DNA of 64,000 nt from Corynebacterium ammoniagenes DSM 20306. GTDB taxonomy: Bacteria; Actinomycetota; Actinomycetes; Mycobacteriales; Mycobacteriaceae. The stretch's first letter is position 1. Every line of letters starts with the position of its first letter. The DNA lies in the NCBI RefSeq assembly GCF_001941425.1, contig NZ_CP009244.1, positions 1,674,001-1,738,000 of the forward strand, read 5' to 3'. Positions 1,335 through 18,646 of this stretch are shown here, piece by piece. Made by a program: the position numbers and the translations under genes. The notes under the pieces are model-generated. The model did no database searches. It was not told the DNA's origin and was given only the letters and a program-made list of their open reading frames with translations.

Positions 1335-1373
1335 GGCACACATGATTGCCTACACGTTCACTTAACAACCCTC

Positions 1374-2531: not shown

Positions 2532-2532
2532 G

Positions 2533-2725
2533 ACATACGGTCCGCGACCGTATGTGGGTCGCGATTAAGTGAATCGCCTGTGGACGAAAAGGCTATCAGC
2601 CTCCGCTCGCAGGCGATTCCGCTGTTCCTGGGTAGCCGGATAATTCCTCATCTTCTTTACAAACTGCCACTGAACCAAAATTCACTCCACTACGGCTGTT
2701 CCATAATTTCGCCATAGTGGAGTGA
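2533..2725. repeat. Three consecutive inverted repeats between convergent genes
   Basis: This gap between two convergent genes holds three separate hairpins. The first is a perfect 10-bp stem (2533-2542 with 2546-2555, loop CGC). The second is a perfect 10-bp stem (2571-2580 with 2610-2619) whose long loop contains a small inner AGGCT/AGCCT hairpin. The third is a perfect 11-bp pair (2682-2692 with 2715-2725). None is followed by a clear T-run, so they are not textbook intrinsic terminators, but together they could end transcription from both sides. Confidence 0.6.
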
Positions 2726-2759
2726 GACAGAAGTGAGCCAGTTATGCGACTAGCAGTAC

Positions 2760-4058
2760 CTATAGTTGTGGGAATCCAAAGACCAAAGGAGTTATCACTG
2801 CGATCATGATAGTCAGCACTATTGTGATCGGAGCACCAAGCTTCAAATAGTCACGGAACCCGTATCCTGCTACCAGGGTTTGAGACATCGCAGTACCGCC
2901 GATCGGAGTGGCAATTGAGGCATTAGAAGCAATTGCGATGGCTAGTACAAAGACGAATGGGTGGTAGCCAACGCCTACTGCAATGCTGACGAAGATTGGC
3001 ACCATCATCGCGGCGACTGCCGTATTAGACATAATGTTTGTCAATACCACCGTGACGACCACTGCAATTGCTAACAGGACCGCGGGGCTCTCGCCGACGA
3101 TGGCTACAGACCATTCGCCTACGAGTTTGCCTGCACCACTGTCGTTCATGCCGGCAGCAATGCCCTGAGCGAACGCAATCAATAGCACCGTGTTCCAGTC
3201 AAGCTGGGCCATAGCCGTTTTGAAGTCGATACACCCAGTCGCGAGAACAATCGCCGCGCCAATCAGTGCAGTAATTTCAATGGGAAGCAGGCCAAACATG
3301 AAGCTAATGACACAAAATACAAGCGTCAATGTTGCAACCCAAGTTTTCCACGTTACTTTGACGTCTAAAGAGCCTTCTGCGTCGTCTGCTCCGACTGTGG
3401 AATGGTCCTCAAACTTGAAGAATTTCCGTTCCATGTTGTAGCCGATAGTCATCATGTAAAGAATCAGCACGAGCAACATCGGGATTGCGATTGGGGCAAA
3501 GTCAAACATCCCCAGCTCGCCGTAGCCTGACTCAGACATGATGCCACTAGCAACTGGTTGAGAGGTCGAGCCGACGAGCGTAATCGTTCCGCCGACCGAC
3601 GCCGCCATTCCAAGTGGCATCAAGAGATTTTTGTTCGTCAGATGACCGGAAGCAGTGGCGACCATACCGCCTACCAAGGGGATAAAAGTTGCCATTAAGG
3701 CGGTATTAGAAAGAAATGCTGAAGCAATACCTGCAACCAGCATCAAGACGCCAAGTAATGCCCGCTCGTTCCTGGCAACGCGAGACTTCAATATCTTTTT
3801 GCCGAGGATGGTAATAGCACCGGTCTCAAACAGCGCATAGCCTACAATCAGCATGCCGAAGACCAGCAAGGTTACTGGCGTTGCAAACCCTGAGTAGACC
3901 TGCTTGAAGTCCATTGCACCGACGAGTGCCAGAACAATCGATGAGATCAGCGCTGTCAAAGCGATTGGGATTCTATCCAGAAGAAAAATGACCAGCGTTG
4001 CAATAATGATTAGCAGGGTTACGTGCTCAATGCCGATCCCGCTTAGTAAATCTGTCAT
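2760..4058 (-). CDS. SLC13/DASS family anion (dicarboxylate-type) transporter
   Basis: A 432-residue, strongly hydrophobic protein with about eleven membrane segments. It carries both Ser-Asn-Thr motifs that bind substrate and sodium in the divalent anion:sodium symporter family: SNTALMATFIP at about residue 118 and MSNTAVAAMMVP at about residue 345. The two halves show the family's inverted repeat. Its ATG overlaps the stop of the upstream dehydrogenase gene (ATGA), so it is translationally coupled as the last gene of a three-gene operon. It probably imports the acid that the two upstream dehydrogenases oxidise. Dicarboxylate, hydroxy-acid or sulfonate substrates are all possible. Confidence 0.85.
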   Translation of the reverse strand: MTDLLSGIGIEHVTLLIIIATLVIFLLDRIPIALTALISSIVLALVGAMDFKQVYSGFATPVTLLVFGMLIVGYALFETGAITILGKKILKSRVARNERALLGVLMLVAGIASAFLSNTALMATFIPLVGGMVATASGHLTNKNLLMPLGMAASVGGTITLVGSTSQPVASGIMSESGYGELGMFDFAPIAIPMLLVLILYMMTIGYNMERKFFKFEDHSTVGADDAEGSLDVKVTWKTWVATLTLVFCVISFMFGLLPIEITALIGAAIVLATGCIDFKTAMAQLDWNTVLLIAFAQGIAAGMNDSGAGKLVGEWSVAIVGESPAVLLAIAVVVTVVLTNIMSNTAVAAMMVPIFVSIAVGVGYHPFVFVLAIAIASNASIATPIGGTAMSQTLVAGYGFRDYLKLGAPITIVLTIMIAVITPLVFGFPQL

Positions 4059-4999
4059 GCTTGTTCACCTCCATTGTGATTTTTTACTGCCAGGTTCTTC
4101 AGTAGCTGTTCATCGCGCCACTGAACACGTTGCTCCCACTGGTCAATTGGGAGAATTTCTCTCCGTTGTTGTTCAACTTTTTGTACGAGGTCAGGAGTCC
4201 AGGGGTCGTGCTGTCCACGTTCTGCACCCTGACGTTCATAGGTTGGGCCAAGTTTTTCGGCATGGGACCGGATGCCTCCACGAGTATTCAAGTCCGCTAC
4301 TTCAAAGGGGCCCATGAAAAACCATCGCTTTCCAAGGCCTTCTCGTACGACCATGTCGATGTCATCTACGTCGGCAATGCCATCGCGGACTAACGCATAT
4401 GCTTCGCGGAGCATGGCGCCTTGAAGCCGATTGAATAAGAATCCCTCGATTTCCTTCTTCAACTGGACCGGCTTCATTCCCACGGAACGATAAAAGTTGG
4501 ACGCAGCACGCACAATCTCAGCGTCAGTACTTGGTGATGGGACAATTTCGATGACAGGCAGTAGATGAGGTGGGTTTCCTGGATGAGCAACGATGGTCTG
4601 CTGCTCAACTTTTAATCCGTTCGCACTTTCTGAGGCAGGAATCGCAGAAGACGAACTTGCGATTACGGTGTCGGAGGACACCAAGTCTGACAGCTGTTGG
4701 AAAATTGCGCGCTTCAGTTCTACTTTCTCCGGCACGCATTCTTGAACAAGCCCTGCACCTGAAACAGCTTCTTCCAGTGACTGACTTAGAGAAATCTTCT
4801 CTAAAACATCCTGTGCATCAACCCCACTGACAGGTTCCATTGCAGTTGCTTTAGCTAGGAGCTCAGTCTCAATTGCAGCTCTGCGTTCTGTATCCGGTTC
4901 AAAGATGCGTACGGCTTGTGCACCACCCGCAAAGATGATGGCGAATGAGACTCCAATTGAGCCTCCTCCGATGATGGCAACTTCGTTTATCTTAGACAT
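4055..4999 (-). CDS. 3-hydroxyacyl-CoA dehydrogenase-like NAD-dependent dehydrogenase (lambda-crystallin/carnitine dehydrogenase type)
   Basis: A 314-residue two-domain dehydrogenase. The N-terminal NAD-binding motif AIIGGGSIGVSFA is at about residues 7-19. The catalytic block HPGNPPHLLPVIEIVPS at about residue 130 has the His and Glu expected for the family. The C-terminal helical domain holds NRLQGAMLREAYALV and GLGKRWFFMGPFE. The length fits single-domain hydroxy-acid enzymes such as L-carnitine 3-dehydrogenase or L-gulonate 3-dehydrogenase rather than fatty-acid HADH. I chose the ATG at 4999, which overlaps the end of the upstream SDR gene by 8 bases; an alternative upstream start would add eight residues. 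The substrate is unknown. Confidence 0.82.
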   Translation of the reverse strand: MSKINEVAIIGGGSIGVSFAIIFAGGAQAVRIFEPDTERRAAIETELLAKATAMEPVSGVDAQDVLEKISLSQSLEEAVSGAGLVQECVPEKVELKRAIFQQLSDLVSSDTVIASSSSAIPASESANGLKVEQQTIVAHPGNPPHLLPVIEIVPSPSTDAEIVRAASNFYRSVGMKPVQLKKEIEGFLFNRLQGAMLREAYALVRDGIADVDDIDMVVREGLGKRWFFMGPFEVADLNTRGGIRSHAEKLGPTYERQGAERGQHDPWTPDLVQKVEQQRREILPIDQWEQRVQWRDEQLLKNLAVKNHNGGEQA

Positions 5000-5741
5000 C
5001 GGAAAGCCCCACTGTGATTCCACCGCAGACGTATGCAGTCTGCCCAGTTACAAATCCCGTTCGCTCGTCTAAGAAGTAGGACACAGCATGAGCGACGTCC
5101 TCTGGCTTGCCCATCTTCTTCAGCGGCACCGATTCAATGATCCTTTGTGTCTCCGGTGAATCGGAAGGGTTCGCATTCAGGAATAGATCCGTTGCGATCG
5201 GCCCAGGGGCAACGGCATTTGAGGTAATACCGTGGGCACCTAATTCCAAAGCCCAGGTGCGCGTCATTCCAAGCATGCCTGCTTTTGTTGCGGAATAGGC
5301 AGTCCGCTTCAACTTGCCCAGCGCAGCCCTCGAACTAATAGATACAATGCGTCCAAAGTTCTGGTCAATCATCCCAGGTGTCAAAGCTTGCGCGCATTGG
5401 AATGCGGACCGCAGATTTAGGGACACGGCTGACTCAAAAGACTCCAAGGTTTGGTGCTCGAGCGAATCTGGGAACACCGCACCCACGTTGTTGACGAGTC
5501 GCGTTATTGGCCCATCAGCGAGAACCGTATTCAGCGTATCAGCGGTCGCGGCGGAGTCTGAAAGATCGCAATGGATTGCTCCATCACCCTCACGATCCAA
5601 AATGATTACGTCGTAGCCGTCTTCGTGGCAGCGCTGCGCAATAGCTGCTCCAATTCCATGCGTTCCACCGGTGATTAGCACGCGTTCTTTTGGCGACGTC
5701 TCGTTTGTTACCGACAATCTCTTTCCCTTCTTCGGAAGCAA
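4992..5741 (-). CDS. Short-chain dehydrogenase/reductase
   Basis: A classical SDR of 241-249 residues, with cofactor motif TGGTHGIGAA near the N-terminus, NNVGA, a catalytic Ser in VSISSRAAL, and YSATK as the Tyr-x-x-x-Lys pair. The C-terminal TGQTAYVCGG matches 3-oxoacyl reductase-like members. The frame opens at a TTG (5741); an internal TTG at 5717 has GGGA six bases upstream and may be the real start. It is the first gene of the operon SDR-dehydrogenase-transporter and faces a LysR gene across a 154-base AT-rich gap. Two dehydrogenases in one operon could act on the two stereoisomers of a hydroxy acid or in succession (inference). Confidence 0.8.
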   Translation of the reverse strand: MLPKKGKRLSVTNETSPKERVLITGGTHGIGAAIAQRCHEDGYDVIILDREGDGAIHCDLSDSAATADTLNTVLADGPITRLVNNVGAVFPDSLEHQTLESFESAVSLNLRSAFQCAQALTPGMIDQNFGRIVSISSRAALGKLKRTAYSATKAGMLGMTRTWALELGAHGITSNAVAPGPIATDLFLNANPSDSPETQRIIESVPLKKMGKPEDVAHAVSYFLDERTGFVTGQTAYVCGGITVGLSDV

Positions 5742-5895
5742 TCACACAACTGCCTTTCACTGCGAGCAATTGTGAGTTGACCAATTTGCAGAACATGAAC
5801 TCATTCACCTTGGCCAATAAAAAGAGACGCTACGCACACTAATTAGAATGATCCAATATACTAATCACATGTAGCATTAACTTTCTTTATAACGA
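5742..5895. promoter_or_regulatory. Divergent promoter region, SDR operon / lysR
   Basis: A 154-base intergenic region between divergent genes. The part nearest the LysR gene (about 5825-5890) is clearly AT-rich, with TAATTAGAATG and CAATATACTAATCACA, the usual place for overlapping promoters and LysR T-N11-A type sites. I could not assign a single operator. Confidence 0.45.
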
Positions 5896-5904
5896 GTGGT
5901 GGAG

Positions 5905-6846
5905 ATGGATACGAGACTGTACGAAGCTTTTGTGGTTCTTTCTGAGGAACGTCATTTTTCCCATGCAGCTGACATACTGGGCGTGTCTCAACCCATAGTT
6001 AGTCAACGGATTAAGAAGCTCGAAGCTGAGCTGGGAATTTCGCTCATTATTCGCACCGCGCGGCCAGTGGCTCTCACACGTGGTGGAGAATCCGTACTGC
6101 CATTTGCCAAGCAATTGTTAGAGGCGCAGTATCACTCAAAACGCGTGTCAAAGTTTGATCCTGACTCTCCCATTGGCACAGTGCGAATCGGATACGCAGG
6201 CGCATCCGTTAATCATCTTTTGCCGAAAATGGTTGGCGCGACCAGGCGGATCGCCCCAGGGATCGACTTAAAGCTTCACCCAATGGTCTACGCCGGCAGG
6301 ACTCAAGGACTGGTCCTCAACGGTGAGTTTGACCTTGCATTTTCTCGCCTGCCGCTGACTCACCCCGAGCTTACGGAAAGAATCGTAGAGTACGAACGCG
6401 TAATCGTTGCGGTCCCAGAATCACATCCGCTGGCCGCACACGACGAAGTAGACATCTCAGATTTAAAGGATGAACCCTGGATCCTATTTCCTGCCCAACG
6501 AGGATCTGCTTTACGGGATACCGGCATCCGGCTCGCGCAAAGCTATGGTTTTACTCCTCGCATTGCTCAGGAGGGTCCCGATTCCTACGCCATCTTGAGC
6601 ATGGTCGCTGCTGGCCTCGGTGTCACCATTACTCTAAGTTCAGTGGCTCATATTCAAGTATCAGGAGTTAAGTTCATTGAGCTTTCCGGTGAACCACGGT
6701 ACTTGGTAGCAACATTGGTGAATTGGCCGAATCCTTCACCGGCAGCTCAAATTGTCTTGGACGCTTTTGAAAAACATTGGCCGACCCCGGAGCAACCAGA
6801 CGGAAGAATTCTCGCATTCGATCCCAAGACCAGCCCGTTCCGATAG
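5905..6846 (+). CDS. LysR family transcriptional regulator
   Basis: A protein of about 313 residues. The N-terminal winged helix-turn-helix reads EERHFSHAADILGVSQPIVS followed by QRIKKLEAELG, typical of LysR. The effector domain fills the rest (periplasmic-binding fold, with IVAVPESHPLAAHDEVDISDL around residue 170). Two GTG codons at 5896 and 5899 lie in frame just ahead of the ATG at 5905; the ATG fits the family N-terminus best. It is divergent from the SDR-dehydrogenase-transporter operon, the standard arrangement for a LysR regulator of that operon, and probably activates it when the imported substrate or a product binds. Confidence 0.85.
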   Translation: MDTRLYEAFVVLSEERHFSHAADILGVSQPIVSQRIKKLEAELGISLIIRTARPVALTRGGESVLPFAKQLLEAQYHSKRVSKFDPDSPIGTVRIGYAGASVNHLLPKMVGATRRIAPGIDLKLHPMVYAGRTQGLVLNGEFDLAFSRLPLTHPELTERIVEYERVIVAVPESHPLAAHDEVDISDLKDEPWILFPAQRGSALRDTGIRLAQSYGFTPRIAQEGPDSYAILSMVAAGLGVTITLSSVAHIQVSGVKFIELSGEPRYLVATLVNWPNPSPAAQIVLDAFEKHWPTPEQPDGRILAFDPKTSPFR

Positions 6847-7841: not shown

Positions 7842-10328
7842 ATGAGCAACCAGGCACCGGATCACATTCGCGTTCGTGGTGCGAAAGTACACAACCTGCG
7901 CGAAGTGGACGTGGATATTCCGCTGAACTCTTTGGTGGGTATCGCAGGGGTGTCGGGCTCGGGAAAGTCCTCGTTGGCCCTCGGTGTGCTGTATGCCGAA
8001 GGCTCCCGGCGCTATATTGAGGCGCTGTCGACCTATACCCGCCGGCGGATGTCGCAATCCCCGCGTGCGCAGGTGGATTCGGTAGAACATGTCCCGGCGG
8101 CGCTCGCGCTGCGGCAACGGCCTGCGGTACCGGGGATTCGCTCGACGTTTGGTACCTCGACAGAGTTGCTCAACGTGTTGCGGCTGATGTTTTCGCGTCT
8201 ATCGTCGCATACCTGCCCCAATGGCCACCGCGTGGAACCGACTATTAGCGTCGCGGCGGAAACGCCTTTTTATTGTCCGACCTGCGGTGAGCAGGTCCAC
8301 CCGCCGGGAGCAGAAGAGCTGTCGTTTAACTCCTCAGGTGCGTGTCCAACGTGTGAGGGCACGGGCACGGTGCGCAGTGTTGATGACGCAGCGCTTATCC
8401 CGGATCCGTCGAAGACCATTGATGAGGGGGCGATTGTGCCCTGGCAAATGTTTGGTTTTAATGTCCAGCCCGATATTGTTCGCGAATTTGGCGTGCGCAC
8501 GGATGTGCCGTGGAACAAGCTGCGCGAGGACGAAAAGCAGATTGTGCTCGATGGGCCGGAGGAGAAAAAGCACATTACGGTCTCTACCAAAAAGGGCGTG
8601 CATGAGCTGGATTTCACCTTTCGCAATGCGCGTTTAACGGTGACAGAAGAGCTCAAGCGCGCCGATACGGAGAAGCGTTTGGCCAAAGTCAGCCGCTTTC
8701 TCCACGAAGGTACCTGCTCTGAGTGCCACGGCACGCGGTTAAGCCCGAGGGCGCGCACCCCGGTCATTGGCGAGCATAACCTGGCGGATATCACCGCGAT
8801 GACCTTGGATGATGCCCTCGCATGGTCGCAGTCGGTACCGGAGCACCTGCCGGCGGACATGCAGCGCATGGCAACAGGGTTAGCCACTACTTTTGCGGAG
8901 ATGGCTCGGCGTCTTATTGAACTGGGTCTGGGTTATCTCTCGCTCGATAGGGCCGGTTCCACCTTGTCCACCGGTGAGCGCCAGCGCGTTCAGCTTGCCC
9001 GCGCCGTGCGCAACCGCACCACCGGCGTGTTATATGTCCTGGATGAGCCTTCCATTGGCTTGCACCCAGTCAACGTTGAAGGCTTGTTGGGTGTCATGCG
9101 CGATTTGCTTGACGATGGCAACTCCGTCATCTTCGTCGACCACGACGTCCAAGTACTACGCGCGGCTGATTGGCTCATTGAAATCGGCCCCGGTTCTGGC
9201 AAAGAAGGCGGCACGGTCATTGCGGAAAATATTCCTGAGAAACTCGCCGATTCGAAAAAGTCCCTGTTGGCGGGCTTTCTCACGGGTGAGAAGGAAGCGA
9301 TCGTGAGGGACATCGTCAAGCCTGATGACGTCTTTGCCTTGGGCGCGATCTCTCTGCGCACCGACACTATCCATACCGTGGCTGCGCTGAGCGTTGATAT
9401 CCCCCTTGGGCGTCTGACCGCTATTACTGGTGTATCTGGTTCAGGCAAAAGCACCTTGTTGATGGAAACCCTGGTACCAGCGCTACATGCGCAAAGTACT
9501 GCCGATGCGGCGATGCCTTCGCATGTGCGCGAGCTCCACGCGCCTGATGACGTCAAAGTCCAAGTTGTCGATGCCACCCCCATTGGCCACAACGTCCGCT
9601 CCACCGTGGCCACCTATTCGGGAGTAATGGATCAGCTGCGCAAGAACTACGCGGCGACCGATACCGCGCGTGCCGATGGTCTCAGCGCCTCTGATTTCTC
9701 CTATAACACCGGCTCCTTGGCCTGCCCGCGCTGTGAAGGGACTGGTGAAATCACCCTCGATGTGCAATTTCTCCCCGATCTCGACATCGTCTGCCCCGAT
9801 TGCGACGGCAGCCGCTACGCACCTGAGGCCGCAAAGTATCTGCGCGGGGATATCTCCTTACCCGCGCTGTTGCAATGCACGGTGCGCGAGGCCATGGAGC
9901 ACACCGACGACCTACCCAGCGTTCACCGCAAGCTGACCAAACTAGAAGAACTGGGCCTGGGCTATCTCACCCTCGGTGAGGCCACCCCTGCCCTTTCCGG
10001 CGGTGAAGCACAACGCCTCAAACTGGTCAGCCAAATGAACCGCGATCAAACAGGCACCGTCTTCGTCCTCGACGAACCCAGCGTGGGTCTGCACCCTCTC
10101 GATGTTCAAACACTTCTCGGCGTACTCGACAAGCTCACGGCCAAAGGCGCCACCGTCATCGTGATCGAACACGACCTGGACCTTATCGTCAACGCCGACC
10201 ACGTCATCGACCTTGGCCTGCGCGAGGACAACACCGGCAGCGAGATTATCGCCACGGGCTCCCCTGCCGACATCGCCAACAATGCCAACTCGCTGACTGG
10301 AAAGTATTTGGCTCACAAGCTCGAGTAG
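7842..10328 (+). CDS. UvrA-like ABC ATPase (excinuclease subunit A paralogue)
   Basis: An 828-residue duplicated ABC ATPase. The first half has Walker A GVSGSGKSS (residues 36-44), signature LSTGERQRVQLA (about 374) and Walker B VLYVLDEPSIGLHP (about 398). The second half has GVSGSGKST (about 528), LSGGEAQRLKLV (about 717) and VFVLDEPSVGLHP (about 741). Zinc-finger cysteine sets are visible at CPNGH/CPTCGEQ, CPTCEGTG, CSECHG, CPRCEGTG and CPDCDGS. It is more than 100 residues shorter than housekeeping UvrA (about 940-950) and belongs to the UvrA2/drug-resistance type, in which UvrB-interaction parts are reduced. Possible roles are protection from DNA-binding drugs or damaged-DNA recognition. 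It stands alone and the ribosome-binding site is weak. Confidence 0.85.
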   Translation: MSNQAPDHIRVRGAKVHNLREVDVDIPLNSLVGIAGVSGSGKSSLALGVLYAEGSRRYIEALSTYTRRRMSQSPRAQVDSVEHVPAALALRQRPAVPGIRSTFGTSTELLNVLRLMFSRLSSHTCPNGHRVEPTISVAAETPFYCPTCGEQVHPPGAEELSFNSSGACPTCEGTGTVRSVDDAALIPDPSKTIDEGAIVPWQMFGFNVQPDIVREFGVRTDVPWNKLREDEKQIVLDGPEEKKHITVSTKKGVHELDFTFRNARLTVTEELKRADTEKRLAKVSRFLHEGTCSECHGTRLSPRARTPVIGEHNLADITAMTLDDALAWSQSVPEHLPADMQRMATGLATTFAEMARRLIELGLGYLSLDRAGSTLSTGERQRVQLARAVRNRTTGVLYVLDEPSIGLHPVNVEGLLGVMRDLLDDGNSVIFVDHDVQVLRAADWLIEIGPGSGKEGGTVIAENIPEKLADSKKSLLAGFLTGEKEAIVRDIVKPDDVFALGAISLRTDTIHTVAALSVDIPLGRLTAITGVSGSGKSTLLMETLVPALHAQSTADAAMPSHVRELHAPDDVKVQVVDATPIGHNVRSTVATYSGVMDQLRKNYAATDTARADGLSASDFSYNTGSLACPRCEGTGEITLDVQFLPDLDIVCPDCDGSRYAPEAAKYLRGDISLPALLQCTVREAMEHTDDLPSVHRKLTKLEELGLGYLTLGEATPALSGGEAQRLKLVSQMNRDQTGTVFVLDEPSVGLHPLDVQTLLGVLDKLTAKGATVIVIEHDLDLIVNADHVIDLGLREDNTGSEIIATGSPADIANNANSLTGKYLAHKLE

Positions 10329-10427: not shown

Positions 10428-10468
10428 AATGGGCCTGGCTCAAGTAAAGTACTCAAACCAAGCCCATT
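10428..10468 (-). terminator. Terminator of the fucose catabolic operon
   Basis: An imperfect hairpin of about 17 pairs (arms starting AATGGGCCTGGCT and ending AGCCCATT) lies 22 bases past the stop of the aldehyde dehydrogenase gene. In the minus direction it is followed by the T-rich stretch TTCTTATG. It also faces the end of the UvrA-like gene and may serve both. Confidence 0.6.
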
Positions 10469-10490: not shown

Positions 10491-11933
10491 TTACAGCTGC
10501 GACTGAATATAGACAGTGTGTGTTTCTACAAACTCCATCAAACCGTGCTTGCCATCGGCACCACCAATTCCTGATTGCCGACGCCCAGCATGGAACCCCT
10601 GCATTGCTTCGAAATTCTCACGGTTGATATAGGTTTCGCCGTACAGCAGTTCACGGGAAGCCTTCATCGCCTTGTTCAGGTTTTCAGTGTAGACGGATGA
10701 AGTTAAACCATATTTCGAGCTATTCGCAATGTCGATAGCTTCATCAAGATCTTTAACTTTGACCACAGGTATGACTGGACCGAAGATTTCATTCCGCGCG
10801 ATATCGGACTCCGGATCTACCCCCGTCAGGATTGCGGGTGCATAGAAGTTTCCTGACTCGAGCTCAGCCGGGACTTCGATCTCAGTGACCAACGTAGCTC
10901 CTTCGTCTACTGCCTTCTGCACCATACCCGAGACCTTCTCGACAGCCGCCCTATTAATCAGTGGTCCCATATCGATATCTTCATCTTTGAGTGGGTCACC
11001 GAATCGCGTGGTTTCAAATTTGGTTTTCAGTTTCTCTACGAACTCATCGTGGACTGATTCTTGGACCAAGACGACTTCGGCGCAGTTGCACACCTGGCCG
11101 GTATTGATGACCCGTGAGTTCCAAGTTGCATCGACAGCTAGATCCAAATCAGCATCATCTAACACAATAGCTGGTGCTTTACCGCCGAGTTCAAGATTTA
11201 CTCGCGTCAAATTGGCTGCTGCGTCGGCCATGATTTGCTTGCCGGCTTTAACCGAACCCGTCATTGTGACCATATTGACCTCTGGGTTTGAGGTCAGCTT
11301 CTGGCCCGCTGTCGCACCTCGACCGCCGATCATATTGAACACGCCATTGGGCAATCCAATGCGATCAACAAGTTCAGCAAACTCAAAGGCAATAATTGGA
11401 GTCTCTTCGCTGGGCTTGATCACGATCGTATTTCCTGTAACGGCGGCAGGGGCAAACTTTCGTGCAACAAGGAAGAGTGGGAAATTCCATGGCAAAATTC
11501 CTGCTACGACACCCATCGGTTGATAGGTAAGAAAGATTTGTTCACCGGGACGATCTGAAGGGATGACTTCGCCTTCAACACGTCGCGCAAACCCTGCCAT
11601 GAAATCAATATAGTCAGCGGTAAAATTCACCTCGGTAGTAGCGAGCGCCTTGGTCTTTCCCTGCTCAGTGATCAAAATGTCGCGAAATTTTTCAACATTC
11701 TCCCGCAGCAGCGTCGCCAAATCCGTGAGATAGCCTGCACGCTCAATAGCTGGCAATTTAGCCCAAGCAGGCTGTGCAGTACGCGCCGCCTGAACCGCTG
11801 ATTCAACCGTATTTTCGTCTGAGTCAGGAGTCTGTCCTAATACCTCACCGGTAGATGGATTCAGTACTTCAATGAAGTTACCTGCAGGCACAAATTGCCC
11901 GTTAATATAGTTTGAATATTCTTTTTGAGACAT
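10491..11933 (-). CDS. aldA: Lactaldehyde dehydrogenase, AldA type
   Basis: A 480-residue NAD-dependent aldehyde dehydrogenase. It oxidises L-lactaldehyde to lactate, the last step of L-fucose breakdown. The catalytic cysteine is in GQVCNCAE (about residue 282) and the general-base Glu in LELGGKAPAIV (about residue 248). Those blocks and the C-terminal YINRENFEAMQGFHAG and SGIGGADGKHGL match E. coli AldA as I remember it, much more closely than generic succinate-semialdehyde or betaine enzymes. The ATG at 11933 has AAGGAAA just upstream; an in-frame ATG at 11951 lacks this. It is the last gene of the minus-strand operon, 30 bases after the aldolase gene, which fits a role on the aldolase product. 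Confidence 0.88.
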   Translation of the reverse strand: MSQKEYSNYINGQFVPAGNFIEVLNPSTGEVLGQTPDSDENTVESAVQAARTAQPAWAKLPAIERAGYLTDLATLLRENVEKFRDILITEQGKTKALATTEVNFTADYIDFMAGFARRVEGEVIPSDRPGEQIFLTYQPMGVVAGILPWNFPLFLVARKFAPAAVTGNTIVIKPSEETPIIAFEFAELVDRIGLPNGVFNMIGGRGATAGQKLTSNPEVNMVTMTGSVKAGKQIMADAAANLTRVNLELGGKAPAIVLDDADLDLAVDATWNSRVINTGQVCNCAEVVLVQESVHDEFVEKLKTKFETTRFGDPLKDEDIDMGPLINRAAVEKVSGMVQKAVDEGATLVTEIEVPAELESGNFYAPAILTGVDPESDIARNEIFGPVIPVVKVKDLDEAIDIANSSKYGLTSSVYTENLNKAMKASRELLYGETYINRENFEAMQGFHAGRRQSGIGGADGKHGLMEFVETHTVYIQSQL

Positions 11934-11963
11934 GGTTTCCTTACTTTCCATAAACGATAGTTT

Positions 11964-12851
11964 TTACTTGCGTCCGAACTTTTCGACGATTTTCTCGACC
12001 GACTCTTGCTCCTCGTCCGTCAGTTCTATAAACGGCTCTCGGGTGGCAGTGTTCAAATCTGATAAATAGCGACTCTTAACGGCAGTCTTAATGGTGTGAA
12101 TGAACTGATCCCCTATGGCGTAAATTTGCATCAGCTCCGAGACATCGCTTGCCAATCGTTTCGCCGTGTTGATTTCGCCGGACTCAATGGTTCTGTGCAT
12201 CTCTGCGAAAAGATCAGGGAAAACATTCGTTAAGCCGGAAATAATTCCAACTCCACCCGCGATTCGGTTGGGAAAATAGTACTCATCAAAGCCGGAGAAT
12301 ACTGCGAATGAGTCATCAGTAGCTGCAATCACACCTCGGGTGTGAGAGATGTTGTCAACGGTGTCTTTGATTCCCACAATATTGGAATGAGCCTTGGAAA
12401 GTTTTCCGACTAATTCCGGAGACAGGTCACTTCCAGTGCGGTCCGGAAAGTTGTACAAGATCAATGGAAGATCTACAGCTTCTGCTAGCTTGCCGAAATA
12501 TTGTTCCGCCGCCGCTTCACTAGGACCGAAATAGTAAGGGCTGACTACAACTGCACCATCTGCACCTGAGTCTTGAGTATGCTTTGTTAAGTTGATTGTG
12601 TCGTTGAGTCTTGTGTTGCCAGTTCCAACGAGAACTTTGGCTCGACCAGCGATCTCTTTGACAGCAAAGTCAATTATGTCTCGTTTTTCTTGCTCGTCGA
12701 AAGCATAGAACTCACCAATACTTCCTAGTATCAGGATGCCGTCTATACCATTTTCGATTAAAAAATTAAGATGCTGAGACCAGACTTCAAAGTCTACTTT
12801 GCCCTCATTTGTAATCGGGGTGATTGAAGGGCAATAAATTCCTTTAAACAC
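11964..12851 (-). CDS. DHDPS/NAL family aldolase, likely 2-keto-3-deoxy-L-fuconate aldolase
   Basis: A 295-residue class I aldolase of the dihydrodipicolinate synthase/N-acetylneuraminate lyase family. The Schiff-base lysine is in IVGIKDT (about residue 161), the conserved tyrosine in LYNFPDRTG (about 133), and the pyruvate-binding loop in GSIGEFYAF (about 44). The start is GTG with an AAAGGA site upstream. The context of lactonase, SDR and AldA argues for cleavage of 2-keto-3-deoxy-L-fuconate to pyruvate and L-lactaldehyde rather than lysine synthesis. The C. jejuni fucose locus has a gene of the same family, also annotated as DapA-like. The local base composition is low in GC (22 of 60 at 12721-12780). 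Confidence 0.8.
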   Translation of the reverse strand: MFKGIYCPSITPITNEGKVDFEVWSQHLNFLIENGIDGILILGSIGEFYAFDEQEKRDIIDFAVKEIAGRAKVLVGTGNTRLNDTINLTKHTQDSGADGAVVVSPYYFGPSEAAAEQYFGKLAEAVDLPLILYNFPDRTGSDLSPELVGKLSKAHSNIVGIKDTVDNISHTRGVIAATDDSFAVFSGFDEYYFPNRIAGGVGIISGLTNVFPDLFAEMHRTIESGEINTAKRLASDVSELMQIYAIGDQFIHTIKTAVKSRYLSDLNTATREPFIELTDEEQESVEKIVEKFGRK

Positions 12852-12853
12852 TT

Positions 12854-13666
12854 TTATCCTTTCAATTTATATACGCGCTGTGCGTTGTGAGAGAAAACGT
12901 CGGCATCGTCACCGAAGAAGCTTCTGAGTAGCTCTAAGTTTTCTTGGACGCTGGAGTTGAGTTTCACCACAGGCCAATTAGATGCGTATAACAACTTCTC
13001 ACGTGAGAACGTGCTTTCCAGCAAACCAAGAACCTTTTGGCTGAATTGAGGTTGATCAGCGGGGAGGCCTGATATTTTGCAATACACATTCGGCAACGCC
13101 GCCAAGCTTTCAATCGCTTGGATGTATTGGTCATCAAGTCGAGATACATTGCCACAGTGATTCAAAACGACGACTGTTTTGGGGACCGTCGCGCAAGCTT
13201 GGAAGAGATCTGACAGTTCTTCCTCACGAATGACCGCTTCGAACACAGTGTTTTGGTCAGCCAGGGCTTCAAGGCCCTGCAAAAAGCTGTCTTGAAGGCA
13301 TCGTCCACGCGGAATGTCCGAGTTGTGCAAGACCTCACGCACCCCAACGAAATCGCTAGCGACCGAAATCGTTTCGGTTAGTCGTTTATGGGTTACGGAG
13401 CCGATTAATGCCGGTACCTGCTCCATTAACGTGAGGATCTTATGGTCCTCAACTGACGAATCAGTTGTATCGGCTTCAATGTGGATGAGCCCTTCCAGAG
13501 CTACGTCTGGTACTTTTCGGTACTCGTCAATCAGCTCTTCGATGCTGAAGCTTCGCCTTAGCAGGGCTACATCGTCAGAAGCATTAAGCCAATCCAATGT
13601 TTGTTCCTGCAGGTCCCAAACATGGAAATGGGAGTCGATTATCTTCAATGGAGACACTAGTTGCAC
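12854..13666 (-). CDS. Amidohydrolase-family lactonase, likely L-fuconolactonase
   Basis: A 270-residue metal-dependent TIM-barrel hydrolase of the COG3618 type. The HxH motif is in IIDSHFHVWDL (about residues 10-20), followed by HIEAD, VLNHCGN (about 170) and YASNWPVV (about 228). The last block carries Asn where many amidohydrolases have the metal-binding Asp. Members of this group hydrolyse sugar lactones such as L-fuconolactone and L-rhamnonolactone. The frame starts with GTG at 13666, one base after the TGA of the SDR gene; an in-frame GTG at 13657 is also possible. Tight packing in the operon supports hydrolysis of the lactone made by the upstream SDR. Confidence 0.78.
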   Translation of the reverse strand: MQLVSPLKIIDSHFHVWDLQEQTLDWLNASDDVALLRRSFSIEELIDEYRKVPDVALEGLIHIEADTTDSSVEDHKILTLMEQVPALIGSVTHKRLTETISVASDFVGVREVLHNSDIPRGRCLQDSFLQGLEALADQNTVFEAVIREEELSDLFQACATVPKTVVVLNHCGNVSRLDDQYIQAIESLAALPNVYCKISGLPADQPQFSQKVLGLLESTFSREKLLYASNWPVVKLNSSVQENLELLRSFFGDDADVFSHNAQRVYKLKG

Positions 13667-13667
13667 C

Positions 13668-14462
13668 TCACTCTATGGTCAGAGCCCTATCTAAGTGAAC
13701 ATATCCGCCGTCGACGAACACGAATTGACCGGTCGTATGGGAGGACCTGCTCGAGAGTAGGAAGGCAGCCGTGTCTCCGATTTCCTCGACAGTCGTCATC
13801 CTCTGACCAAGGGGAATATTCTGCGTGATTGACTGCAAACGCGCCTCTTGTTCATTCTCATCACCAAAGGATTGAATCCACTTTTGGTAGAGCGGCGTCC
13901 AGGCCTCTGCAACAACGATTGCATTTACACGAACTTCATCAGCAGCTAGTGCGGCAGCCCATTCGCGCGTAAGACCCAAAACAGCACCCTTGGCAGCAGC
14001 ATATGCAGAAGTCTTACCCTGACCAGTCAATGCAGTTTTTGAGCCAATGTTGAGTACTGCGCCCTGCGATTCCTTAAGGAATCCAACGGAAGCATGAACC
14101 AGCTCGTAGTAGTGAGTCAAATTTCCGTGAATTGACTGTTCGAACTCTTGCCAAGTCGTAGTTTCCAGATCTCGGTTATCGTTTGTGCCCGCATTATTAA
14201 CGATTCCGTTGATTCGTCCATATTTCTGGTGCACGTTATTAACAATGGGGGCGATTTTGTCCGTGTCATTGAGATCAATGCTGATCACTTCATATGTCGC
14301 GCCCAAATTATCGAGCTCAGTGCGGTAATCGTCTGGCAGATCATTTCGATCCAGAATTACCGGAATAGCACCCTCACCTGCTAGTGAAAGAACAATTCCC
14401 TTGCCAATCCCTTTAATTCCGCCGGTAACGAGAAATACCTGGTCCTTTAACCGTAAATCCAT
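13668..14462 (-). CDS. Short-chain dehydrogenase, likely L-fucose dehydrogenase
   Basis: A 264-residue classical SDR: cofactor motif GGIKGIGKGI (residues 14-23), NNAGT, catalytic Ser in NIGSKTAL, and YAAAK (about residues 151-155). The C-terminus reads GQFVFVDGGYVHLD. A strong AGGAGG site lies 7 bases before the ATG. As first gene of SDR-lactonase-aldolase-AldA it most likely oxidises L-fucose to L-fucono-lactone, like FucX of the C. jejuni fucose locus. A role as 2-keto-3-deoxy-fuconate dehydrogenase is the alternative, but an aldolase plus AldA makes that branch unnecessary. Confidence 0.78.
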   Translation of the reverse strand: MDLRLKDQVFLVTGGIKGIGKGIVLSLAGEGAIPVILDRNDLPDDYRTELDNLGATYEVISIDLNDTDKIAPIVNNVHQKYGRINGIVNNAGTNDNRDLETTTWQEFEQSIHGNLTHYYELVHASVGFLKESQGAVLNIGSKTALTGQGKTSAYAAAKGAVLGLTREWAAALAADEVRVNAIVVAEAWTPLYQKWIQSFGDENEQEARLQSITQNIPLGQRMTTVEEIGDTAAFLLSSRSSHTTGQFVFVDGGYVHLDRALTIE

Positions 14463-14563
14463 AAGCAGCCTCCTGTTCTACTGAATGAAACTCTGTTCCA
14501 TATCTTTGATAGTAACGCAGACCACAACACATGCAACTCATTTCAAGAAGTTTGTTAGATAAC

Positions 14564-15355
14564 TCACGTCAGCTTTCGGCGCGACCACTCCGCACGAGCC
14601 ATCTTCGGCGAGCCTAAATCCTCCGAGATCGCAGATGCGATGTCAGTAATCACGGGAGCAAACTCACGCACCTCTTCGATTGAATTCTCCAGAGCCAAAG
14701 AAGTCATTGAGATTGCATGGGAAATGTTTCCGGAATGGTCAAATATGGGCGCCCCAATACAACGAATGCCCGGAACATTCTCTTCATCGTCGACGCTATA
14801 CCCATCGAGCCGCACCTGCGCTAAGGTTTCTCGCAACTTTGTTGAATCAATGATCGTGTTGGGAGTCTTCGGGGCCAACTCTGCAATGGAGAAATAGTCC
14901 GCCAGCGCTTCCGAATCAAATCCGGAAAGCAAACATTTACCTATCGCAGTGGAATGCAAAAACATACGCTGACCAACTCCCGAGGGAATGCTATACGGGG
15001 TACTACCGCTTTGCTTCGTAATATAAATGGCTTCAAACTGGTTCAAAGCGCCGACATGAGCGGTGTACCCCATCTTTGCCGACAAGACCTTCAAGTGCGG
15101 AGCTGCAATCTTAGAAATATCGATATTCCTAAATGCTTCACCCGCCAATTGCAGCGAAGCCGGGCCCGCAAAGTATTCACCAGATTCAGAAACAGCGACG
15201 AATCCAAATTCGAGCAGCGACTTCAAAATTCGATGCACCGTGGCTTTCGCAAAGCCAGTCGCACTAACAATTTCGGTAAACCGCTCATATTTAATCGCTG
15301 CCTGCAACACGATAAGCGTCTTATCTGATGCCGCATACTGACGTCTCTCACTCAT
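14564..15355 (-). CDS. IclR family transcriptional regulator of the fucose locus
   Basis: A 263-residue protein. The N-terminal winged helix-turn-helix runs over residues 10-65, including FAKATVHRILKSLLEFGFV. The effector-binding IclR domain follows, with the conserved cysteine region GKCLLSGF (about residue 140) and GIRCIGAPIFDHSG (about 205). It sits between the two halves of the fucose locus: divergent from the fuconate dehydratase operon and 101 bases upstream of the SDR-lactonase-aldolase-AldA operon. That position suits a repressor of both. The C. jejuni fucose locus also begins with an IclR-type gene (established for that organism). Confidence 0.87.
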   Translation of the reverse strand: MSERRQYAASDKTLIVLQAAIKYERFTEIVSATGFAKATVHRILKSLLEFGFVAVSESGEYFAGPASLQLAGEAFRNIDISKIAAPHLKVLSAKMGYTAHVGALNQFEAIYITKQSGSTPYSIPSGVGQRMFLHSTAIGKCLLSGFDSEALADYFSIAELAPKTPNTIIDSTKLRETLAQVRLDGYSVDDEENVPGIRCIGAPIFDHSGNISHAISMTSLALENSIEEVREFAPVITDIASAISEDLGSPKMARAEWSRRKLT

Positions 15356-15493
15356 AACATCTCCATTCGCTCGATTTCACTGACATATTGCCATATCCAT
15401 TACAGAGACCATTAATGCAAATGTAATCCGAAAAACTCCTTGCGGCCGAACGTGATTCACGATACATTCTCTATCGAGAGCAAAAGAAACTCA

Positions 15494-15510
15494 GTTCCGA
15501 GTGGCGGAAC
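15494..15510. promoter_or_regulatory. Candidate IclR operator before fuconate dehydratase
   Basis: A perfect inverted repeat GTTCCG-N5-CGGAAC lies 54 bases before the fuconate dehydratase start, in the 209-base gap divergent from the iclR gene. Size and position fit an IclR-family operator. Partial copies of the half-site (GGAACAG and AGAACAG) occur in the gap upstream of the SDR gene at about 14475-14500. Assignment is by position only. Confidence 0.4.
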
Positions 15511-15564
15511 ACATGCAGGCTTTGCTTGAAGATTCGCCGTTCAAAATCAAACGAAAGGAATTAA

Positions 15565-16848
15565 ATGAGCAAGATTTCGAAGATCTCAACGTTCGATCTA
15601 CGCTTCCCCACTTCATCCACACTTTCTGGTTCTGATGCTATGAATCCAGATCCTGACTATTCTTCTGCCTATCTCGAGGTGGAAACGGACGCAGATGACG
15701 GAATCAAAGGAGTTGGTTTCGTATTCACGATCGGACGCGGTAACGACGTAGTGATTAAGGCAATCGAGTCTTTATCAGAACGATTCATCGGTATGTCCAT
15801 TGAGCCTCTTTTGGATGACATGAAAACCGCGTGGGACATGTTGGTACACGATTCGCAGCTGCGTTGGCTCGGACCTGAAAAAGGAGTGGAACATATGGCA
15901 ATCGGAGCCATGCTCTCCGCACTCTGGGATATCAAGGCAAAGCGCGCTGGAGTTCCTTTGTGGCAGTTGCTTGCCGAAATGGAACCTGAAGAATTAGTTG
16001 CGACTCTGGACTTCCGCTATCTCACTGATGTTCTCACCCCTGAAGAAGCTGTTGAGATTCTGCGTCGCGGACAGGAAGGCAAAGCCGAACGTATGCAGCA
16101 CCTCTTGGATAATGGATATCCAGGATATTCCACGGCTGCAGGATGGCTCGGTTATAGCGATGAAAAGATGGTTTCACTCGCTGCGTCGGAATCAACTGAA
16201 AAAGGGTTCGACCTGATTAAGTTGAAGGTCGGGCAAAATCTGGAGGATGATCTTCGCCGCTTGAGGCTGGCTCGCGAAGCAATCGGCAGCAACGTCCGGT
16301 TGGCAGTTGATGCCAACCAGGTATGGGATGTGGATGTCGCTATCGACTGGATACAACAGTTCAAGGACTTTGAACTTGAATGGGTGGAAGAACCTACGAG
16401 CCCAGACGACGTTCTAGGTCATGCGCGTATTGCACAGGCTGTACACCCGATCCCGATCGCAACCGGCGAGCAAATGCAGAGCCGTATCCTGTATAAGCAA
16501 TATCTTCAAGCAAATGCATTTGAAGTCATGCAAGTGGATGCGACACGAGTTGCGGGACCTCAAGAGCTAATAATCGAGTACCTCCTAGCTCACAAATTCG
16601 GGAAGAGAGTTTGCCCGCATGCCGGTGGTGTTGGACTGTGCGAGGCTGTGCAGCATTTCGCAATGTTCGACTACATAGCAATTTCGGGTAGGACCGAAGG
16701 TCGCTATATCGAATATGTCGATAATCAGCACGAACATTTCGTCACACCCGTCGAAATCAAAAATGGCAACTATATGCCACCTCTCGCGCCTGGCAATAGC
16801 TGCGAGATGACTCTCGAAACCGCAGAAAAGTACCTTTACGCCCCATAG
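15565..16848 (+). CDS. L-fuconate dehydratase (enolase superfamily)
   Basis: A 427-residue mandelate racemase/enolase superfamily enzyme that dehydrates L-fuconate to 2-keto-3-deoxy-L-fuconate. The N-terminus FDLRFPTS...GSDAMNPDPDYS and GFVFTIGRGN is characteristic of the fuconate dehydratase/ENOSF1 group. Barrel residues are visible in order: the lysine pair LIKLKVGQ (about 219-221), metal ligands in VDANQVWD (about 249), WVEEP (about 275) and TGEQ (about 302), and the catalytic His in CPHAGGVGLCE (about 352). A good site (AAAGGAAT) precedes the ATG. It is first in a three-gene operon with fucP and fucU, divergent from iclR. Confidence 0.93.
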   Translation: MSKISKISTFDLRFPTSSTLSGSDAMNPDPDYSSAYLEVETDADDGIKGVGFVFTIGRGNDVVIKAIESLSERFIGMSIEPLLDDMKTAWDMLVHDSQLRWLGPEKGVEHMAIGAMLSALWDIKAKRAGVPLWQLLAEMEPEELVATLDFRYLTDVLTPEEAVEILRRGQEGKAERMQHLLDNGYPGYSTAAGWLGYSDEKMVSLAASESTEKGFDLIKLKVGQNLEDDLRRLRLAREAIGSNVRLAVDANQVWDVDVAIDWIQQFKDFELEWVEEPTSPDDVLGHARIAQAVHPIPIATGEQMQSRILYKQYLQANAFEVMQVDATRVAGPQELIIEYLLAHKFGKRVCPHAGGVGLCEAVQHFAMFDYIAISGRTEGRYIEYVDNQHEHFVTPVEIKNGNYMPPLAPGNSCEMTLETAEKYLYAP

Positions 16849-16896
16849 TCCCTGCCCGAGCTCTCAAGATTCTTCAGATGAAATCTAAGGAAAATA

Positions 16897-18231
16897 ATGA
16901 CTTCAATCAGCAAACCCAGCCCAAATGAAGCGGCTGAGGAAGACAAAAAGTCAAAGGGTAGTTTCGTCTACCCGGGTCTTCTACTACCTTTCGGGCTAAT
17001 CGTAGCCTGTTTTGCGGCGTGGGGTATTTCGACAGACCTAACCGCTCCAATGGTTAACGTGTTCAGTTCTGTTTTCGACATGAGTGCGTTCCAATCTGCT
17101 CTGGTTCAGTTTGCCTATTATGGCGCATACTTCCTACTGGCGATTCCTGCGGCAATGCTCAATACCCGCTTTGGTTTCAAAGGTGGCGTAGTCATCGGCA
17201 TGTCCTTGGCAGCCATTGGTGCGTTCCTCTTCTTCCCGGCCGCTGAAATCATGACATATGGAACCTTCTTACTTGCACTTTTCGTACTCGCAGGTGGTTT
17301 GTCAATTGTTGAAACCTCCGCTAACCCATTCGTTATGTCGTTGGGGCCAGAGAAAAACGCGACTCGCCGTTTGAATTTCGCCCAGGCGTTTAATCCCATC
17401 GGTTCAAACTTGGGTGTCTTAATGGCAACCCTGCTTGTCGCACCTCATATCGGTAATGCGGCAGAACGTGCATCACTGCCTGAGGCGGAAGCTCTCGCAC
17501 AAACGTCGTCCGAACTGGAACGGGTGATGGTGCCCTATATTATTTTGGGTGTTCTCTATGCAGTCCTAGCCATCTCCATCTTCTTCGTGAAAATCCCTAA
17601 GAATAAGCGGATGGAACAAACAGATTCAAATACTGTCACTAAAGGCGTGTTCCGTCGCCTGTGGAACAATGGCAACTACCGCTTTGGTGTTATTGCTCAA
17701 TTCTTTAACATCGCTGCACAAACCTGTATTTGGACATTCATTCCATTCTACGTCCAACACACTCTCGGAGCTTCCCATGAAGCTGCGGACTGGTGGCTGC
17801 AGCTCTCCCTTATCTTCTTCCTTGTCATGCGCTTTGTCATGGTCTGGCTAATGGGAAAGTTCGACAGCAAGAAGCTGCTCGTCGTTATGTGCGTACTGGG
17901 AACAGTTTTCACGATTATCGGTATTGTGTCTGGAAATGTCATTGGCGCTGTTGCCATTGCTGCTCTTTCCGGTTGCATTTCGCTCTTGTTCCCCACTATC
18001 TACGGCGTAGCGCTCAGCGGAGTTGGTGCTGACACCAAATTTGCGTCATCTGGCCTGGTCATGGCAATTGTCGGCGGCGCTATCGCTCCGATGCTTCAAG
18101 GTGCACTGACGGACGCAACTAATCCTCAGATTGGTTTCTCCTTCGTTGTCATTTGCTTCCTAGTAATCGGTGCATTTGGTATCTATTCCATCAAAAACGG
18201 TATCCATACACATGAGGACGCCAATGCTTAA
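16897..18231 (+). CDS. fucP: L-fucose:H+ symporter, MFS
   Basis: A 444-residue, 12-segment transporter of the fucose-galactose-glucose subfamily of MFS. Family features are the early Asp in WGISTDLTAP (about residue 50), the acidic residue in VETSANPFVMSLGP (about 142), and RLNFAQAFNPIGS (about 158), all matching the FucP pattern. An AAGGA site precedes the ATG. It lies 48 bases after fuconate dehydratase, and its last codons overlap the start of fucU. This identifies free L-fucose as the imported sugar, possibly released from host or milk glycans (inference). It should give no phosphorylated intermediate, in keeping with the absence of fucI and fucK here. Confidence 0.92.
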   Translation: MTSISKPSPNEAAEEDKKSKGSFVYPGLLLPFGLIVACFAAWGISTDLTAPMVNVFSSVFDMSAFQSALVQFAYYGAYFLLAIPAAMLNTRFGFKGGVVIGMSLAAIGAFLFFPAAEIMTYGTFLLALFVLAGGLSIVETSANPFVMSLGPEKNATRRLNFAQAFNPIGSNLGVLMATLLVAPHIGNAAERASLPEAEALAQTSSELERVMVPYIILGVLYAVLAISIFFVKIPKNKRMEQTDSNTVTKGVFRRLWNNGNYRFGVIAQFFNIAAQTCIWTFIPFYVQHTLGASHEAADWWLQLSLIFFLVMRFVMVWLMGKFDSKKLLVVMCVLGTVFTIIGIVSGNVIGAVAIAALSGCISLLFPTIYGVALSGVGADTKFASSGLVMAIVGGAIAPMLQGALTDATNPQIGFSFVVICFLVIGAFGIYSIKNGIHTHEDANA

Positions 18232-18646
18232 CAACATCTCTCCACTGATTTCACCTAATCTCCTCAAAGTCCTTGCAGATATGGGGCATGGGGACGAAAT
18301 TACGATCGCGGATGCTCACTACCCTGTGCAAGGCTCTGCAGAAACGGTAATCCGATTGGACGGCGTTAAGATTCCGAAGCTCTTGGATGGAATTTTGCAG
18401 CTTCTCCCGCTTGACGATTATCACGACTGGCAATACGCACTAATGCAGACTGTTGGTGACGACGAAGACCCCGTAATTTGGGAAACATACCGGGAGATAC
18501 TCGACAACCACGGGAACCATGTTCCACATACTTTCGAGCGATTCGAATTTTATGAATATGCTAGAAAGTCGTGCGCAACTGTGATTACCGGTGAAACTGC
18601 GCAGTACGGCAACATCATTTTACGCAAAGGAATTGTTACGGAATAA
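18224..18646 (+). CDS. fucU: L-fucose mutarotase
   Basis: A 140-residue FucU/RbsD-fold protein. It interconverts the alpha and beta anomers of L-fucose so that imported sugar can enter the dehydrogenase. The catalytic His lies in LADMGHGDEITIADAHYP (residues 14-31), and the C-terminal RFEFYEYARKSCATVITGE and YGNIILRKG are family signatures. The ATG at 18224 overlaps the fucP stop (ATGCTTAA) and has GAGGA 6 bases upstream, so it is translationally coupled; longer upstream starts lie wholly inside fucP. It closes the fucP operon, just ahead of a strong terminator. Confidence 0.93.
   Translation: MLNNISPLISPNLLKVLADMGHGDEITIADAHYPVQGSAETVIRLDGVKIPKLLDGILQLLPLDDYHDWQYALMQTVGDDEDPVIWETYREILDNHGNHVPHTFERFEFYEYARKSCATVITGETAQYGNIILRKGIVTE

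Follow-up and report, generated by a model that had tools for sequence, protein, structure and literature searches.

A predicted non-phosphorylative L-fucose cassette with a likely oxidative ending in Corynebacterium ammoniagenes

By what route might a corynebacterium without a recognizable L-fucose isomerase break down L-fucose, from where did it obtain the genes, and to which end products would they lead? These questions are raised by an eight-gene cassette at 10491-18646 of a 64 kb window that covers positions 1674001-1738000 of the single-contig, 2.79 Mb genome of Corynebacterium ammoniagenes DSM 20306 (G000); coordinates below are those of this window unless given as genome positions. Two blocks diverge from a single intergenic region: a leftward block running from 15355 to 10491, with iclR and genes for a short-chain dehydrogenase/reductase (SDR), a lactonase-like protein, an aldolase of the dihydrodipicolinate synthase (DHDPS) type and AldA, and a rightward block from 15565 to 18646 with fucD, fucP and fucU. 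All eight open reading frames are present and open where a first-pass annotation, made from the DNA letters and their translations, had placed them, and the expected Pfam families were recovered for all eight proteins. We read the cassette with considerable confidence as a predicted non-phosphorylative L-fucose pathway to pyruvate and L-lactate, probably under an IclR-type repressor; the pathway, step order and products proposed in the first-pass annotation stand as a prediction on family models, FucD residues and gene content.

In this pathway, FucP would import L-fucose and FucU would mutarotate it, after which the SDR would oxidize the unphosphorylated sugar to L-fuconolactone and the lactonase-like protein would open the lactone to L-fuconate. 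FucD would then convert L-fuconate to 2-keto-3-deoxy-L-fuconate, the DHDPS-type aldolase would split this into pyruvate and L-lactaldehyde, and AldA would oxidize L-lactaldehyde to L-lactate. The genes, their families, the FucD residues, the common gene set and the operator-like site can be read from the sequence; the substrates, the sense of regulation and the use of lactate are predictions. FucD (15565-16848, forward strand) matched the L-fuconate dehydratase 2hne at 533 bits, and K219, K221, D249, E275, E302, D325 and H352 aligned to K218, K220, D248, E274, E301, D324 and H351 of that structure, so that all seven residues defining enolase-superfamily L-fuconate dehydratases (the KxK motif, three metal ligands and the His-Asp pair) are in place. 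The structure 2hne is that of the Xanthomonas campestris enzyme. The SDR (13668-14462, reverse strand), the predicted L-fucose 1-dehydrogenase, scored 388 bits against the L-fucose dehydrogenase model NF052481 (cut-off 300); its best solved relatives were 6drr and 6ds1 (277 bits), the former presumably Campylobacter jejuni Cj0485 (FucX), and 4gkb and 4gvx of Burkholderia multivorans (246 bits). Trp194 of FucX, described as gating the sugar site and hindering other C4 configurations, is retained as Trp195. AldA (10491-11951, reverse strand), the predicted L-lactaldehyde dehydrogenase, scored 706 bits against NF007497 (cut-off 500) and carries both motifs, GQVCNCAE and GGADGKHGL, on which the first reading had relied; its best solved relatives, 2opx (572 bits) and 2hg2 (571 bits), are named aldehyde dehydrogenase A or lactaldehyde dehydrogenase and are, we assume, E. 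coli proteins.

The remaining proteins fit the same scheme. FucP (16897-18231, forward strand) exceeded TIGR00885 (376 bits, cut-off 280.4), stayed under the cut-off of NF007524 (236 bits, cut-off 427) and matched the L-fucose-proton symporter 3o7q at 228 bits. The fucU gene (18224-18646, forward strand) overlaps the 3′ end of fucP, and ATG 18224, at which matches begin, is a likelier start than GTG 18170; its product reached the Pfam RbsD_FucU model (PF05025) and matched the L-fucose mutarotase 2wcv at 117 bits. For the DHDPS-family protein (PF00701; 11964-12851, reverse strand) we predict 2-keto-3-deoxy-L-fuconate aldolase activity: all 11 cassette aldolases carry GSIGEF, YNFPxRTGxDL and KDTxD, a combination missing from each of four other DHDPS paralogues encoded by G000. 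The Lys of KDT is presumably the Schiff-base residue. The absence of fucI, stated in the first-pass annotation, was borne out, as PF07882 had no match in G000 or in five other genomes of the genus (0/6) in a genome-wide search that covered FucI and not fucK or fucA; two of 14 control genomes, one of them E. coli, did have the family.

Several results weigh against these assignments. FucU fell slightly under the cut-off of NF011949 (135.4 bits, cut-off 141), and the aldolase exceeded the dapA model TIGR00674 (217 bits, cut-off 206). It carries GSIGE, not the DapA motif GTTGE, which occurs in another gene of G000 (genome position 1249424) that scores 252 bits and is likely DapA. The lactonase-like protein reached 68.7 bits against a cut-off of 400 for the L-fucono-1,5-lactonase model NF052480, and has Asn230 where relatives carry a β8 Asp thought to be catalytic.

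The pathway itself is not new to the genus. The first-pass remark that such a cassette is not associated with Corynebacterium was overtaken by an earlier study, in which Ravcheev and Thiele (2017; PMC5583593) predicted an Fcl pathway in C. ammoniagenes DSM 20306 and in bifidobacteria. As described there, an fclBC cluster carries two replacement enzymes, the SDR FclA2/FclD2 and FclE2 of the DHDPS family, and we infer that this cluster equals the present cassette. The term 'aldehyde dehydrogenase' is absent from the main text of that paper, and its sections 9 and 18, as far as accessible, do not mention a regulator site, the lactonase active site or an aldA ending. These three are additions made here, the lactonase active site being the most surprising of them.

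The lactonase-like protein (12854-13666, reverse strand) belongs to the amidohydrolase family PF04909 by score, by the HxH motif on β1 and by its barrel fold, and its best solved relative is 6uvz of Bifidobacterium longum subsp. infantis. This much of the first-pass call of an amidohydrolase lactonase was upheld; the score far under the L-fuconolactonase model and the β8 change from Asp to Asn, which the call had missed, leave its lactonase half qualified. Scores against NF052480 were also low for the relatives P0006, P0039 and P0105 (47-53 bits), with no match for P0118 at E ≤ 1e-10. The β8 residue is Asn in all 130 members of the subfamily to which the cassette protein belongs and Asp in each of 41 relatives outside it; at β2, Glu replaces Gln in 129 of the 130 members (Glu64 in the cassette protein). 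The His pair and Lys197 are retained in all 130 members and His170 in 129. At β8, the cog3618 structure 4dlf of B. multivorans has Asp and differs there from the cassette protein, whose active site resembles that of the LigI lactonase mutant D248N; by their entry titles, the D248A and D248N mutants of LigI were deposited as complexes. The residue survey took the best 120 of 399 homologous matches, the other 279 lying outside it, and the sample therefore favors the cassette subfamily; the structure alignment used 36 of these 120 and the tree 14 sequences.

Because Asn replaces the presumed catalytic Asp, the lactone-opening enzyme likely works in an unusual way. We tentatively suggest a new mechanistic class of lactonases, spread over Actinobacteria, Firmicutes and Campylobacter, in which the β8 Asp-to-Asn and β2 Gln-to-Glu changes would have moved the catalytic base to another barrel strand and retuned the site for deoxy-sugar lactones, and in which many members are fused to a mutarotase domain that would feed the lactonase. 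Open-access titles and abstract openings matched by text search, little of it directed at lactonases, contained no mention of a β8 Asn in fuconolactonases. It is possible, if doubtful, that the protein is no lactonase at all: Asn at β8 would have abolished hydrolysis, leaving the protein another job such as handling lactone or sugar anomers, while the lactone opened slowly by itself or through another enzyme. The strict division between Asn and Asp at β8 would suit such a loss, as would the LigI complexes, which suggest mutants built to trap a bound ligand, and the fusion to a mutarotase-family domain in 29 of the best 120 of 399 homologues. It sits poorly with the retained His pair, Lys197 and His170, with a paired β2 swap that could supply the base, with the label L-fuconolactonase that some sources give to homologues, and with the strong rise of FumD on fucose described in B. 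infantis. If the enzyme is active, it would represent a natural replacement, with compensation, of a residue taken as catalytic in the amidohydrolase fold; if it is inactive, the pathway proposed for fucose in gut bacteria has its second step wrongly assigned.

The search of Corynebacterium genomes that the first-pass annotation had called for, run for FucD across 242 genomes of the genus, returned a relative (E ≤ 1e-60) in six, five of which hold the cassette (G000, G236, G116, G031 and G172), the sixth being C. deserti. The cassette genes are clustered in the four carriers other than G000, without aldA in G116, and partly so in bifidobacteria and Actinotignum; genes were called at loci by tblastn matches of at least 60 bits with 60% coverage, with L001, L002, L013-L016, L103 and L104 excluded. 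Outside the genus, the FucD proteins most identical to that of G000 among the best 80 loci listed came from Bifidobacterium callitrichos (78%), Bifidobacterium rousetti (77%), Arcanobacterium sp. S3PF19 (76%), Bifidobacterium sp. N4G05 (72%), Alloscardovia macacae (68%) and Actinotignum urinale (65%), whereas the GltX proteins of these six carriers are only 57-59% identical. Among the matches listed, the closest relatives thus belong to bifidobacteria, Arcanobacterium and Actinotignum rather than to soil actinobacteria; Bifidobacterium, Alloscardovia, Arcanobacterium and Actinotignum are mostly host-associated genera. In a FucD tree of 39 of 94 sequences, the six outside carriers and the five corynebacteria join at 100/98, apart from other actinobacteria and C. 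deserti.

From this distribution we conclude that the core cassette (fucD, SDR, lactonase, aldolase and fucU), common to bifidobacteria and Actinotignum, likely moved between such bacteria. Per-gene phylogenies, also proposed at the outset, bore on this unevenly. The corynebacteria group together in the FucD tree (100/99) and in an unrooted aldolase tree of 11 sequences (100/99), and the SDR, lactonase and FucP trees count against this reading in that their corynebacterial genes do not form one clade, with FucP of Actinotignum falling beside that of G116 at 79/84. The SDR, lactonase, fucU, fucP and iclR trees, which like the other non-FucD trees held the carriers plus zero to four outgroup sequences, contain many open forks and are too weak to repeat the FucD grouping. 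Old vertical inheritance with loss from most corynebacteria would accord with the single FucD clade and with FucD identities to G000 within the genus (79-89%) that resemble those of GltX (76-96%). We consider it unlikely: just 5 of 242 genomes carry the cassette, the relatives G082 and G195, at 96% GltX identity, yielded no match to FucD and carry different DNA at this site, and FucD identities to two bifidobacteria (77-78%) and to G031 and G172 (79%) are about equal, although the corresponding GltX values are 59% and 79-80%. The composition of the cassette also speaks for transfer, at 48.3% GC compared with 55.6% in the remaining window, and in a scan in steps of 50 the 8156-base stretch of minimum GC starts at 10951. 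The first-pass counts of 22/60 (12721-12780) and 36/60 (42661-42720) proved exact, the cassette being more AT-rich than the rest.

Glycoside hydrolase family 29 (GH29) fucosidases had no match in 6 genomes and GH95 none in 5 corynebacteria, and the five corynebacterial carriers, in which neither was found, are therefore likely scavengers of free L-fucose released by others, that is, cross-feeders.

Two related gene sets merit separate mention. The locus of Arcanobacterium sp. S3PF19 (L019:7906-12860) is a cut-down cassette of iclR, fucD, a GntP-type sugar-acid permease (TIGR00791, 361 bits, cut-off 292.75) and aldolase; its 19 kb locus has no SDR, lactonase, fucP or fucU match over 60 bits, and the set would be better fitted to taking up and metabolizing L-fuconate than L-fucose. 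A FucD-like gene of C. deserti was rejected as kin of the cassette, since it falls on a long branch among soil actinobacteria. It lies on pCdes1 (NZ_CP009221.1), a mobilizable 31 kb plasmid, where the FucD-like enzyme (56%) has as neighbors a TRAP transporter, an NADP aldehyde dehydrogenase, an SDR and two FAH-family hydrolases, pointing to a different predicted sugar-acid pathway.

Among described systems, the bifidobacterial fum locus (fumE, fumC, fumD, fumF and fumP; PMC6817895, PMC7732495) has counterparts of the dehydratase, SDR, lactonase and aldolase, and differs, in these accounts, by a LacI-type FumR, other transporters and the reduction of lactaldehyde to 1,2-propanediol. Raised expression is tabulated for these counterparts in PMC6817895, and FumD and FumE rise on free fucose (PMC7732495). 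The first-pass annotation had likened the family set to that of C. jejuni, and the resemblance is real: the fuc locus cj0480c-cj0490 (PMC12566272, PMC6946681) is described with a divergent IclR-type regulator, FucP, the SDR FucX and a hydrolase, together with a mutarotase, a DapA-like protein and a second dehydrogenase (PMC6946681), and differs in a dehydratase of another family (Cj0483), a second transporter and one long operon. By sequence and gene content, however, the closest loci are the bifidobacterial fum-type loci and Actinotignum. The enolase-type dehydratase, flagged at first as an exception, is not odd beside a DHDPS-type aldolase, because those loci pair them too. Cj0483 we presume to be an altronate-hydrolase-type dehydratase. 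The X. campestris and B. multivorans pathways (Yew 2006, Hobbs 2013) share an enolase-type FucD, a cog3618-type lactonase and an SDR dehydrogenase, with a described ending through a diketo acid and a hydrolase. The E. coli fucPIKUR genes and AldA share the FucP, FucU and AldA families; in contrast, the cassette genome has no FucI match and its predicted intermediates are not phosphorylated.

AldA sets the corynebacterial cassettes apart from the bifidobacterial loci. Of 13 genomes searched at E ≤ 1e-140, four encode it (G000, G236, G031 and G172, each a corynebacterial cassette carrier); G116, G082, G195 and the six non-corynebacterial carriers, the bifidobacterial genomes among them, gave no match. 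The gene was likely added within the corynebacteria, the alternative being its loss from G116, and it would turn the 1,2-propanediol ending of bifidobacteria into an oxidative lactate ending; one extra gene thus likely made an anaerobic bifidobacterial fucose pathway oxidative. Lactate could then be used in G000 by a protein of PF01070, a family that includes L-lactate dehydrogenases, encoded whole at genome position 2049501 (425 bits). Counting against such use elsewhere, stop codons interrupt the PF01070 gene in G236 (C1:1975413-1976278), while its frame is open in G000, G082 and G195, and G116, G031 and G172 show only weak matches; lactate use by these carriers is therefore unsure.

The presence of aldA also bears on how the carbon chain is cleaved, because only the direct aldolase route makes lactaldehyde. 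A different ending was proposed for clusters of this kind including that of C. ammoniagenes DSM 20306 (PMC5583593): the SDR is given two roles (FclA2/FclD2), a circumstance that tells against the single oxidation assumed here, and would also oxidize 2-keto-3-deoxy-L-fuconate to a 2,4-diketo acid, with the DHDPS-family protein (FclE2) replacing a hydrolase to give pyruvate and L-lactate directly. James (2019) read a homologue as a direct aldolase, however, and PMC11199699 presents direct cleavage by an aldolase as its route 1. With no diketo-acid hydrolase family among the cassette genes, and with an aldA that makes sense in the operon only if lactaldehyde is formed, we regard the second oxidation as highly improbable. 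Nor is it at all probable that the same enzymes serve mainly D-arabinose or L-galactose, giving pyruvate with glycolaldehyde and glycolate or with glyceraldehyde and glycerate: both sugars match L-fucose in ring stereochemistry, E. coli AldA also oxidizes glycolaldehyde, and it speaks against an L-fucose assignment that D-arabinose is oxidized by Cj0485 and its homologue BmulJ_04919, both of which are described as acting on L-galactose too (Cj0485 at a low level), yet FucP and FucU belong to fucose-named families, Cj0485 is reported to be ~4-fold selective for L-fucose over D-arabinose, and the bifidobacterial counterparts respond to fucose.

The direct aldolase route to lactaldehyde and lactate would be controlled by the IclR-type regulator (PF01614/PF09339; 14564-15355, reverse strand), whose gene is divergent from fucD here and at the other loci among seven cassette loci in all. 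Upstream of fucD lies an operator-like site (15486-15510, forward strand) of the 25-base pattern GRAACTNNGTTYY-N6-YGRAAC, which matched seven times in 1.91 Mb, each time upstream of fucD at one of these seven loci, and not once in 10 letter shuffles; the pattern was written after the seven sites had been seen, and nine overlapping loci were left out of the scan. A pattern built from the five corynebacterial sites alone also finds the Actinotignum site and misses that of Arcanobacterium, which has one extra base within the first part. No such site occurs at L009 or L010, where an IclR-family match lies near a distant enolase. A possible second half-operator, GAAACTCTGTTCC, stands upstream of the SDR operon (14487-14499, forward strand), and copies of this 13-mer with at most one mismatch occur in the window only there and at 15486. 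Against a paired arrangement, within-genome pairing of operator-like sites was significant in G116 (0 of 40 shuffles reaching the observed value) and not in the other four genomes (G000, 4/40; G236, 38/40; G031, 40/40; G172, 15/40). The C. jejuni IclR-type regulator FucR is described as repressing the fucose operon (PMC12566272), and by analogy, fucose or a pathway intermediate likely relieves repression by the cassette IclR.

Finally, we compared the surroundings of the cassette. In G000 and G236 its place relative to gltX and tRNA-Gln is the side that carries tRNA-Glu; a vanZ gene intervenes in G000 alone, with no vanZ match beside the G236 cassette. G082 and G195 share with G000 the gltX-tRNA-Gln-tRNA-Glu side and vanZ, with other DNA there: other open reading frames follow vanZ in G082, and ~16 kb separates tRNA-Glu from vanZ in G195. 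In G116, G031 and G172, cassette and gltX are on separate contigs. The cassette thus occupies a variable site, for which exact junctions and a clean empty site were not found among the relatives compared. Second tRNA-Glu copies in G236 and G079, considered as a duplicated attachment site, may be ordinary genes. On the same side of gltX in G082, ~5 kb past vanZ, are type I restriction-modification genes (HsdR, HsdS and HsdM domains; L129:4791-11532). The G116 cassette without aldA (L098:1-19001) sits between an arabinose-isomerase-like operon and a sucrose/phosphotransferase-system-like block, both named by eye from translations.

Within the window, a terminator-like hairpin of 19 pairs, the longest stem listed, follows aldA (10428-10468, reverse strand); it is one of 11 such sites, compared with 8.2 ± 2.5 in shuffles, a weak excess. 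The left neighbor of the cassette encodes an 828-residue UvrA-like protein (7842-10328) that falls under both UvrA cut-offs (715.6 against 1147 bits; 691.7 against 729.8); a search of six relatives gave it no match at E ≤ 1e-150. Farther left, 3-6846 is another accessory catabolic block, in which three genes have a third-position GC of 45-56%, like the fucose cassette. It encodes a caprolactamase-beta/hydantoinase-B-like protein (far under its cut-off), an SDR, a LysR regulator, a DASS-like transporter (153 bits, cut-off 198.6), a member of the tyramine oxidase subunit B family (579 bits, cut-off 362) and a PRK06129 3-hydroxyacyl-CoA dehydrogenase (392 bits, cut-off 347).

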